From the NCBI GenBank assembly GCA_002716585.1, contig PBBL01000081.1:124001-188000 (forward strand): a DNA stretch of 64,000 bases. Direction: 5' to 3'. The position numbers and the translations under genes are program-made. The notes beneath the pieces were generated by a model, which saw only the letters and a program-made list of their open reading frames with translations, did no database searches and was not told the origin of the DNA. Source of the DNA: Myxococcales bacterium (GTDB lineage Bacteria; Myxococcota_A; Bradymonadia; Bradymonadales; GCA-2716585). This document shows positions 44,516 to 50,936 of this stretch, in pieces (within the stretch, counting starts at the first letter, position 1; each line of letters opens with the position of its first letter).

Positions 44516-44922
44516 CGGGACTCCTGGGTCAAACGCGCGTGATTCGGCCGCCTCGCCGAGGCTGCGAGGCGCGACGCGGGTTGATGCTGGGACGCGCGTC
44601 ACGACCCCGGGGTCGAGCACCGAGGGCTCCTGGCGGGCGTGGCGCGGTCTGGCGATGCGCGTGTGAGGGTGCCACACACGCGCGGACCTGTCACCCGCCA
44701 TGATCCGGCCTGGGGGTTGACAACAGCGGGTGAAAATCCTGGAATCTGTCTCGGCGTGCGCCTGGATGTGGTAAGGTCAGGTTCAATGAACCGGGCTGAT
44801 CTTCAAGAGCCCCTGGGGGAATGAACCGGACGAGCAATACGTCCAGGGAAACGCCACGCCGCGCTCGGCCCGAGGCCGTGCGCGCTCGCCTGCACAAACA
44901 CAGGTACGATGGGAGGAAGTGC
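44516..44922. other. Divergent intergenic region, lipoprotein / prkA
   Basis: 407 bases separating the large lipoprotein gene (minus) from prkA (plus). It holds the prkA promoter (44717-44745) and a leader of about 170 bases. Within the leader is a possible 12-codon reading frame at 44786-44824. The ten-base ATGAACCGG-containing segment occurs twice, at 44785 and 44820, 35 bases apart. No other gene seen. Confidence 0.45.
44717..44745 (+). promoter_or_regulatory. Candidate sigma-70 promoter for the prkA operon
   Basis: TTGACA at 44717-44722 (perfect), 17-base spacer, TGGAAT at 44740-44745 (four of six). Leaves a 5' leader of about 170 bases before the prkA ATG. Confidence 0.6.
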
Positions 44923-46968
<2,046 letters not shown>

Positions 46969-47075: not shown

Positions 47076-48182
47076 ATGAGTCGAATTCAGACAGACCATC
47101 GCCGCTTTCGACAGATCGTCCGGGGCAAGATCAAGCGCAACCTCAAGCGCTACATGTCCCAGGGCGAGCTGATCGGTCGTAAGGGCAAGGACAAGGTCTC
47201 GATCCCGATCCCCCGCATCGACATCCCCCGCTTCCGGTTTGGCCAGCGCCAGTCCGGCGGGGTCAGCCAGGGCAACGGCGACGTCGGCGACTCCCTCGGG
47301 CAAGGCGATCAGCAGCCCGGCCAGGGCGGTCAGGCGGGCGACCAGGCCGGGGATCACAGCCTGGAGGTCGAGGTCAGCCTCGACGAGCTGGCCGAGATCA
47401 TGGGCGAGGAGCTTGAGCTGCCGCGCATCGAGCCCAAGGGCAAGGAGTCGCTGGAGACGCTCAAGGAGAAGTACACCGGGATCCGCCCGGTCGGCCCCGA
47501 GTCGCTCCGCCACTTCAAGCGGACCTACAAGCAGGCCCTCAAGCGCATGGTCGCCACCGGGGCCTACAACCCCAACAACCCCATCGTCCTCCCCATCCGT
47601 GAGGACAAGCGCTACCGCGCCTGGACCGAGATCAAGGAGCGCCACGCCAACGCCGTCATCGTCTACATGATGGACGTCTCCGGCTCCATGGGCGACGAGC
47701 AGAAGGAGATCGTCCGCATCGAGTCCTTCTGGATCGACACCTGGCTCCGCTCCCAGTACCAGGGCATCGAGTCGCGCTACATCATCCACGACGCCACCGC
47801 CCGCGAGGTGGACGCCCACACCTTCTTCCACACCCGCGAGTCGGGCGGCACGATGATCTCCAGCGCCTACAGCCTCTGCGCCCGCATCATCGAGGCCGAG
47901 TACCCGCTGGAGGACTGGAACATCTACCCCTTCCACTTCTCCGATGGCGACAACTGGTCCGTCGATGACACCCTGGAGTGCATGAACCTCCTGCGCGACC
48001 AGCTCATCCCCTCGTGCAACATGTTCGGCTATGGACAGGTCGAGTCGCCCTACGGCTCCGGCCAGTTCATCAAGGATCTGCGCGAGCACTTCGACGACGA
48101 GGAGAAGATGACGCTCAGTGAGATCAAGAACCGTGACGCGATCCTCGGCTCCATCAAGGACTTCCTCGGCAAGGGCATGTGA
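47076..48182 (+). CDS. yeaH: YeaH/YhbH family protein (DUF444)
   Basis: A 368-residue DUF444 protein, close to the 385-427 of Bacillus YhbH and E. coli YeaH. The N-terminus is basic ([20 protein letters not shown]), then a Gly/Gln-rich linker (about 60-95). A VWA-like metal-binding core follows, with [16 protein letters not shown] as a MIDAS-like site. It works with PrkA in stress physiology, probably as a partner or substrate, but its biochemical role is not settled. It starts after the 46993-47026 hairpin and is followed 54 bases later by spoVR. Confidence 0.92.
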
Positions 48183-48236: not shown

Positions 48237-50936
48237 ATGACGCTGCCCCTGCACCTGTGGGAGATCAAGGAGAACATCCGAATCATCGCCGAGGACCTCG
48301 GCCTCGACTTCTTCGAGACCATCTTCGAGGTCGTTGACTACAAGCGGATGAATGAGATCGCCGCGTTCGGTGGGTACCCCACCCGCTACCCGCACTGGCG
48401 CTTCGGCATGGAGTACGAGCAGCTCTCCAAGAGCTACGCCTATGGCCTCTCCAAGATCTACGAGATGGTCATCAACAACAACCCCTGCTACGCCTACCTC
48501 CTCGAAGGCAACAACCTCGTCGATCAAAAGACCGTCATCTCGCACGTCTACGGTCACTGCGACTTCTTCAAGAACAACTACTTCTTCAGCAAGACCAACC
48601 GCAAGATGATGGACGAGATGGCCAACCACGCCACCCGCGTCCGTCGCTACATCGACCGGTACGGGATCGAGAAGGTCGAGTCCTTCATCGACGTCTGCCT
48701 CTCCATCGACAACCTGATCGACTACTTCTCCCCCTTCATCGTCCGCTCGCGCGAGTCCGACCCCAGCACCGAGGACGACGATCACGACATCGTCGTCCCT
48801 CGCCTGCGCTCCAAGGAGTACATGGAGGACTTCATCAACCCTCCCGAGTACATCGAGGCGCAGCGCAAGAAGCTCATCGAGGAGCGCGACAGGAAGCGCA
48901 CCTTCCCCGAGCACCCCCAGCGCGACGTCATGCTCTTTCTCCTGGAGAACGCCCCGCTGGCGGGCTGGGAGAGCGACATCCTCAGCATCATCCGTGAGGA
49001 GGCCTACTACTTCGCCCCCCAGGGGCAGACCAAGGTCATGAACGAAGGTTGGGCCTGCGTGCACCCGGACACCTACGTCTTCACCGATCAAGGCATGGTC
49101 TGCATGCGCGACCTCGTGGAGCGCGGCTGCGGTGAGGTCTTCGACGGCGAGAAGCGACAGCGGGTCTACGACCGGAACATCATCAGGAACCACGACTCGG
49201 TCACGGTCCGCACCCGGCGCGGGCTGGAGCTGTGCGGCTCGAACAACCACCGCGTCCTCCTTGAGGACGGTGAGACCTGGAAGCGCCTCGATGAGCTGGA
49301 GATCGGCGACTCGATCGCGATCAGCGGCGGCGGTGACATGTGGCCCGAGGCGATGGTGCCTCTGACCTGGTCGCTCCCCCCAACCATGACCCTCCACGAC
49401 GTCGCCGAGCAGGCCGACGTGTCCGTGTGGACCGTGCTCCGGCGCAGAGCGGGGCGGAACGTGCGCGCGGCCCTCGCGGTGGATGAGGCGCTTGAGGAGT
49501 ACGAGGCCCTTCAGCAGGTCGCGCCTGCGCGCTCCATCAACCGCCGCGCGGTCGTCCGCGTCCCTGAGGTCCTTGATGAGCGGCTCGGCGCCTTCCTGGG
49601 CTACCTCGTGGGCGATGGCCACATCAGCCGCGTCAAGCGTCACCTCGGGCTGACCTCGGGTGATGAGTCCCAGGCCCTCCACTTCCTGAAGCTGGGCCAG
49701 GAGCTCTTTGACGTGACCGCCAGCATGCACAAGGACGAGGGCCGCTGGCGCGTCCTCCTCCACTCCGAGACGGTGTCCGACTTCCTCGTGGATGGCCTCG
49801 GCCTCACCGAAGGCCCCAGCGCCCGCGACAAGCAGATCCCCGCGGAGGTCCTGCGCTCGTCGGAGCCGGTCGTCCGCGCGTTCCTGAGGGCGCTCTTTGA
49901 CAGCGACGGCTACGCCGGTCGGCAGGGGGTCATCCTCAGCACGTCGAGCGACAAGCTCGCCGAGCAGGTCCAGCTGCTGCTGCTCAACTATGGGATCCTC
50001 AGCCGCAAGCGCCTTCAACAGGATGGGTGCTGGCACGTCCACGTCACCGGTCGCTCCGCTCAGGTCTACGCGGAGCGGGTTGGCTTCGGGCTTGCGCGTA
50101 AGCAGGAGGCGCTCGACGCCTACCTCCAGGACCACACGTGGTTCAAGCAGGAGCGCTGGCTCGATGAGATCGTCGAGATCGAGCACGGGCAGTGTGACGT
50201 CTACGACATCTCGGTCACCGAGACCCATCGGTACGCGGCGGGAGGGGTGATCAACCACAACTCCTACTGGCACTCCAAGATCATGACCGAGCACGTCCTC
50301 GACGCCAGCGAGATCATCGATTACGCCGAGGCCTACGCGAGCGTCATGGCCACCGCGCCCGGCCAGTTCAACCCCTACAAGCTCGGCATCGAGCTGTTCC
50401 GCAACATCGAAGACCGCTGGAACAAGGGGCAGTTCGGCAAGGAGTGGGAGGAGTGCGAGGACCTCGCCGCCAAGGAGAGCTGGAACCGCCAGCTCGGCCT
50501 CGGGCGGGAGAAGATCTTCCAGGTGCGCTCCATCTACAACGACGTCACCTTCATCGACGAGTTCCTCACCGAGGACTTCGCGCGCGAGCAGAAGCTCTTC
50601 ACCTTTGGCTACAACAAGAAAAGCCGCCAGTGGGAGATCGAGAGCCGCGAGTTCGCCGAGATCAAGCAGAAGCTGTTGTTCCAGCTCACCAACTTCGGCC
50701 AGCCCACGATCATGGTCAAGGACGGCAACTTCGGCAACCGCGCCGAGCTGCTCCTCCACCACCGGTTTGAGGGGGTCGAGCTGAAGATGGACTACGCCCG
50801 CGACGTTCTTGAGAACATCAGCCGCATCTGGCGTCGCCCCGTCAACCTGGAGACGATCGTCGAGGGCAAGGGGCGCCTGCTCACCTACAACGGCTCCGAC
50901 CACAGCGACCGCCCCATCGAGTACGAGCCCGTCTGA
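48237..50936 (+). CDS. spoVR: SpoVR family protein interrupted by an intein
   Basis: The reading frame is 899 residues: a 497-residue SpoVR (YcgB) host protein plus a 402-residue intein at residues 274-675. GGAGGAG lies five bases before the ATG. The SpoVR parts run continuously across the insertion: ...KVMNEGWA, then after the intein [15 protein letters not shown], together rebuilding the family's conserved NEGWASYWH core. After splicing the length matches E. coli YcgB (510). SpoVR works with PrkA and YeaH in stress or sporulation-linked development, but its chemistry is unknown. As translated, the precursor should be inactive in its conserved core until the intein leaves. Confidence 0.95.
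49056..50261 (+). mobile_element. Intein with LAGLIDADG homing endonuclease, inside SpoVR
   Basis: 402 residues between Ala273 and Ser676. Splice residues: Cys at position 1 ([20 protein letters not shown], block A), block [17 protein letters not shown] (His at intein position 65; Ser-Asn-Asn-His instead of Thr-x-x-His), block [17 protein letters not shown], block G VINHN ending in His-Asn, then Ser as first C-extein residue. Endonuclease motifs are [10 protein letters not shown] (Asp460 of the precursor) and [12 protein letters not shown] (Asp555/Asp557), so both catalytic acids are kept. A helix-turn-helix resembling LacI ([19 protein letters not shown], from residue 384) lies between the splicing and endonuclease parts. 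Composition resembles the neighbours, so it is not obviously recent. Confidence 0.93.

Follow-up and report, generated by a model that had tools for sequence, protein, structure and literature searches.

The interrupted spoVR gene

The window (the whole stretch of 64,000 nucleotides analysed here, part of a MAG that is 65.6% complete) carries on its forward strand an operon in the order PrkA-DUF444-SpoVR, PrkA and DUF444 being the usual partners of SpoVR. Neither prkA, which encodes an AAA+/PrkA kinase (44821..46968, +; PF08298, PF06798), nor the yeaH-like DUF444 gene (47076..48182, +; PF04285) contains an intein. The third gene, spoVR (48237-50936, +), is one unbroken ORF of 899 aa, to which the Pfam SpoVR model aligns in two parts, positions 7-270 and 268-406 of the model, which join at an in-frame insertion. 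The N-extein has 273 aa and ends in KVMNEGWA (48237..49055, +; PF04293 model 7-270 against protein residues 7-275); its sequence runs on without a break in intein-free relatives. The C-extein has 224 aa, starts with SYWHSKIM and provides Ser as the +1 nucleophile (50262..50933, +; PF04293 model 268-406, and SpoVR_C, PF24755). Joined, the exteins amount to 497 aa, a SpoVR of normal length as an earlier note on this DNA had maintained, and the full PF04293 profile over them, together with the prkA-DUF444-spoVR operon, identifies the host protein as SpoVR. In this respect the window protein resembles the ordinary SpoVR family (PF04293; YcgB in E. coli), from which it differs in being interrupted, most genomes having an intein-free SpoVR. 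NEGWA[S/T][Y/F]WH ranks with the best-conserved parts of SpoVR, and the insertion splits this most conserved motif. The predicted structure of an intein-free SpoVR is mediocre (pLDDT 75) and returned no significant match in the PDB; judging from conservation, the intein may split a SpoVR active site.

Anatomy of the intein

The insertion comprises 402 aa with no stop, from CVHPD to VINHN (49056..50261, +), between KVMNEGWA and SYWHSKIM; the position between Ala and Ser of NEGWA/SYWH given in the earlier note was exact. In the window ORF the Pfam profiles Intein_splicing (PF14890) and LAGLIDADG_3 (PF14528) score 45.6 bits (cut-off 35.8) and 67.6 bits (cut-off 22.5), respectively; the models for the N and C ends of inteins, TIGR01445 and TIGR01443, are barely above their cut-offs with the intein alone as query. 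The N-terminal Hint (splicing) part, approximately residues 1-100 (49056..49355, +), is recognized from the sequence and is mostly beta in the model described below; it includes Cys1 (49056-49058, +) and the block-B His65 (49248-49250, +). The C-terminal Hint part (50157..50261, +) includes the block-F His391 (50226-50228, +), kept in 75/76 of the homologues collected in this study, and the pair His401-Asn402 (50256-50261, +). The splicing residues that the earlier note had listed, that is Cys1, His65, His401, Asn402 and the +1 Ser, are all present, and each of them is invariant in the 76 homologues, all of which also match both PF14890 and PF14528. Block B reads SNNH in the window as against the textbook TxxH, with Ser at this position in 71 of the 76 sequences.

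Between the two Hint parts lie a small helical unit and an endonuclease. The helical unit, residues 113-155 (49392..49520, +), is an HTH-like accessory domain with three helices in the model (113-119, 124-131, 139-155), and its probable role is DNA recognition. Weak matches to the LacI-type HTH of Pfam occur in 38 of the 76 homologues (best E 4.4e-5); since the window sequence scores 16.4 bits, below the Pfam cut-off of 27, the LacI label was dropped, and we refer to the unit as HTH-like only. The LAGLIDADG homing endonuclease domain, approximately residues 170-345 (49563..50090, +; PF14528), can also be aligned with LAGLIDADG enzymes that stand alone, among them I-DmoI, and has the two motifs of this class with both catalytic acids in place, as had been claimed: Asp187 (LVGDG; 49614-49616, +) and Asp284 (FDSDG; 49905-49907, +), which are Asp in 74/76 and 75/76 homologues, respectively. 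The GC3 of the intein is 0.90, close to the 0.94-0.96 of the exteins, and there is no break.

Predicted fold and comparison with known inteins

An AlphaFold (AF2) model of the intein, built on the 76 homologues, has a mean pLDDT of 94.1; it consists of a largely beta Hint fold formed at both ends, the three-helix HTH-like unit (113-155) and the two-motif LAGLIDADG domain (~170-345). The top matches of this model in a Foldseek search of the PDB are solved intein structures, each with a homing endonuclease nested in it: TliVMA, PI-TkoII, PhoVMA, PI-PfuI and PI-SceI. The best of these in fold (7qsu; E 1.1e-24, TM 0.65/0.70), and also the best PDB match in sequence (E 5.9e-21), is TliVMA from Thermococcus litoralis (PDB 7QSU, 7QSS; PMC8966425), which like the window intein combines a Hint fold, a nested two-motif LAGLIDADG endonuclease and an HTH-like accessory domain. 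The identity between the two is approximately 21%, the host gene (V-ATPase A) and the insertion site of TliVMA are others, and the accessory domain follows the endonuclease in TliVMA, whereas in the window intein it lies between Hint-N and the endonuclease. Published work shows that the TliVMA endonuclease cleaves its empty site once this is reconstituted, and that cleavage is modulated by accessory HTH-like domains (PMC8966425). PI-TkoII, PI-PfuI and PI-SceI share the Hint and LAGLIDADG layout with an accessory domain (PMC8966425), but are larger, reside in other hosts and are only 13-15% identical to the window intein.

A site-specific family across bacteria and haloarchaea

SpoVR was found in 210 of 379 genomes sampled from the window's phylum, and in 18 of these (the window included, and one cut by a contig end) it is interrupted by an intein, always after NEGWA. 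The 16 complete inteins other than that of the window measure 399-404 aa each. The intein-free SpoVR of a different genus in the window's family (79% identical) is contiguous across NEGWA|SYWH, and so are the other intein-free SpoVR sequences that were read, which thus represent the empty site. Two genomes of a single genus have an intein-free SpoVR that reads NEGWA|CFWH, with Cys in place of Ser at +1.

When genomes of bacteria and archaea were scanned, full-length relatives turned up at about 70 loci, almost all of them at the same site in SpoVR. By the titles of their records, the bacterial carriers belong to at least seven phyla (Myxococcota, Planctomycetota, Bipolaricaulota, Chloroflexota, Acidobacteriota, Nitrospirota and Bdellovibrionota), 20 carriers are haloarchaea, and isolate chromosomes (L081, L083, L089) are among the carrier sequences. 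Halomicrobium katesii, Natrinema altunense and Natribaculum breve are named carriers. The weakest matches of the scan (L121-L129) are ORFs with at most 32% identity that lack the SpoVR motif. Seven IMG/VR contigs also bear the SpoVR intein. A second, independent sample, of 292 haloarchaea, gave 12 full-length matches and one split by a contig end, the host gene having been re-read for part of them. One intein from the window's order (genome G219) has the same sequence as that of the record named Bradymonadaceae bacterium LUM.15 (L039 = L076), which points to Bradymonadales as the order of the window. In the plasmid and annotated-phage collections no match covered 80% of the query, and those listed were only distant intein or endonuclease fragments (~23-31% identity); carriage by plasmids or annotated phages was therefore rejected. 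Altogether there are 76 distinct homologues, all in SpoVR and all at the same site. We propose that they constitute one site-specific allele, and suggest the name SpoVR-a.

These data bear on the most skeptical reading of the locus, namely an artefact of MAG assembly, or a Hint/endonuclease domain that is fused and does not splice. The incompleteness of the window MAG and the fact that splicing is deduced from the sequence lend it some color; nevertheless, another 75 distinct sequences, isolate chromosomes among them, have this element at the identical codon, every splicing residue is invariant, and GC3 shows no break at the intein. An artefact is refuted by the same-site homologues in many genomes, and none of the relatives, among which the earlier note would have looked for a fused domain, has lost Cys1, His65, His401, Asn402 or the +1 Ser, which makes this reading as a whole scarcely credible. 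Motifs, profiles, predicted fold, the site left empty in relatives and the unvarying splicing residues of the 76 homologues thus concur at the level of sequence and model: the window insert is confirmed as a class-1 intein, complete and with a LAGLIDADG endonuclease nested in it.

Horizontal spread

The presence of the intein is patchy even within one family and one order: on a SpoVR tree of 46 rows it changes 10 times, at least 7 of these changes being forced by well-supported branches. Distances also point to horizontal transfer. Between the nearest bacteria and the haloarchaea the median distance is 1.37 for the intein and 4.18 for the SpoVR extein, and in the top pairs the raw identity is 49-59% for the intein as against 29-39% for the extein. 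The ratio of intein to extein distance is 1.15 between the window and L051, 1.4-1.6 inside the window's order and, among Planctomycetota, 1.8, inteins being the faster to evolve there; it drops to 0.47 for the window pair against haloarchaea, and to 0.33 for four Bradymonadales-type bacteria (L034, L063, L070, L076) against the same group. The corresponding value within haloarchaea, where the extein evolves fast, is 0.75: acceleration of the extein thus explains part of the reversal, but 0.33 lies well beyond it.

In a careful tree of the inteins, all haloarchaeal sequences group with those of the same four bacteria (support 100/99), while the SpoVR exteins of the four group with that of the window (support 99; this extein tree was a quick search that returned long-branch warnings). 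Forcing the four exteins together with those of haloarchaea was rejected (AU p 0.017), as was forcing the inteins of the window pair together with those of the four (AU p 0.011), these p-values being moderate and the groups having been named after the trees were seen. The inteins of the window and L051 are placed among those of other Myxococcota, apart from the inteins of their order-mates, which likely reflects at least two acquisitions within this order. The conflict between trees, together with the reversal of distances, supports a horizontal spread of the intein, including at least one crossing between bacteria and haloarchaea.

Is the endonuclease still maintained?

An alternative to ongoing mobility is that the intein splices but its endonuclease is dead or fixed, homing being over and inheritance vertical. 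Many sub-clades (haloarchaea, Planctomycetota, Bipolaricaulota) are indeed mostly coherent in both the intein and the extein trees, and three members have a changed acid (L034, D187A; L100, D187G; L042, D284E), from which we conclude that decay occurs too. On the other hand, both acids are intact in the window, and presence is patchy and the trees conflict, as described above. Furthermore, in 13 close pairs dN/dS is 0.09-0.30 for the intein and 0.07-0.25 for the endonuclease region, low in every pair tested, which indicates that the endonuclease is maintained, as expected under recurrent homing. Full size is also the rule: mini-inteins would be under-represented in the contig scan, whose patterns lie within the endonuclease, but the SpoVR-based search is free of that bias and returned 16/16 inteins of full size. 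On balance we regard the loss of homing as rather improbable. One of the three sequences with a changed acid, in a single-contig genome of 5.05 Mb (G008), reads LVGAGH at the first motif, and is a natural candidate for a splicing-only form.

Proposed mechanism

Very probably, then, the element in the window is a class-1 intein, complete with nested LAGLIDADG endonuclease, that belongs to the site-specific SpoVR-a family, splices, homes and has spread horizontally. The 899-aa precursor, presumably inactive as long as it is unspliced, would be translated whole; as the motifs suggest, Cys1 and the Ala upstream of it would undergo an N-S acyl shift, attack by the +1 Ser would follow, and Asn402, aided by His401, would cyclise, releasing ligated SpoVR with the sequence ...NEGWA-SYWH... 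restored. Conservation and trees further suggest that the endonuclease cuts an intein-free spoVR at the NEGWA|SYWH codons, probably with the assistance of the HTH-like accessory domain, and that repair off the intein-bearing allele would then copy the element into the cut gene. What makes the site work is the conservation of NEGWA[S/T][Y/F]WH: distant genomes offer the same target DNA again, and selection acts against imprecise loss.

The nature of the host invites a further hypothesis, that the intein was domesticated into a conditional switch, the splicing of SpoVR awaiting a signal (redox, metal, salt) and thereby regulating the PrkA-DUF444-SpoVR stress pathway. Conditional splicing has been published for inteins of DnaB, RadA and SufB (PMC6195587, PMC7360933, PMC5790916, PMC5874633), and here a stress protein is split in its most conserved motif, with a precursor that is presumably inactive. 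Patchy presence argues to the contrary, as most relatives manage without the intein, and the additional cysteines of the window intein (16, 25, 60) are absent from the consensus of the 76 members, which leaves no family-wide redox sensor in the sequence. It is solely the nature of the host that speaks for such a part in the stress response, and we consider a domesticated switch unlikely. Still less probable is its most ambitious form, in which the intein would hold PrkA-DUF444-SpoVR inactive until a signal arrives, and would be passed among bacteria, haloarchaea and large viruses with PrkA-DUF444-SpoVR operons and the intein.

An apparently unreported allele

The earlier note was not aware of a well-described SpoVR intein. 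This impression holds for the open-access literature searched, in which no paper contains both "SpoVR" and "intein"; it does not extend to InBase and closed papers, which were beyond the scope of the search. Models for "intein-containing" exceptions exist in NCBIfam for other hosts, and none was found for SpoVR. A 2014 survey of haloarchaeal inteins (PMC4071816) describes 24 alleles in 13 genes (cdc21, polB, rir1, udp and others), which like the SpoVR intein are patchy and horizontally transferred, some being shared with bacteria; SpoVR is not among them, although 12-13 of the 292 haloarchaeal genomes sampled here have a strong match. The SpoVR intein is thus ordinary in kind, an intein with a homing endonuclease, but the allele is unusually widespread, crosses domains and is apparently unreported. 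Inteins concentrate in proteins of replication, recombination and repair, a puzzle of "localized distribution" (PMC5874633); with a widespread allele in SpoVR, a stress protein whose biochemistry is unknown, the range of hosts becomes broader. Given its clean cross-domain signal, the allele lends itself well to tracing gene flow between bacteria and haloarchaea, and its insertion site points to NEGWA[S/T]xWH as a functional core of SpoVR.

IMG/VR contigs and other intein-like insertions

Four IMG/VR contigs (L131, L133, L135, L136; up to 335 kb) carry prkA/DUF444/spoVR clusters or parts of them, with phrog matches that include a "sporulation protein" and an adjoining ribonucleotide reductase of phage type; a terminase check of the IMG/VR contigs gave one sub-threshold match only, and their viral status is the assignment of IMG/VR. 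In one of them, of 173 kb, SpoVR (L135:2805-6908) has two inteins, one at the same site and the other at a second insertion site in SpoVR (...EMVIN | C...SHN | TNPCY...). In two others the DUF444 gene and spoVR are separated by an ORF of 536-587 aa (L131:2208-3815, L133:2476-4236) that resembles a nuclease with DNA-binding units in repeats; it is possibly a free-standing homing endonuclease.

The window genome itself has two more intein-like insertions on other contigs. One is in glycine dehydrogenase (GcvP; L137, G000 contig C69:35130-36719), directly after the PLP-lysine motif (...LNLHKTF | C...VHN | CIPHGGGGPG...), where the Pfam intein profile scores below its cut-off. The third of the genome is in IMP dehydrogenase (GuaB; L138, G000 contig C85:41243-42289), and is located at the catalytic loop (...VGVGPG | C...VHN | SICTTR...).
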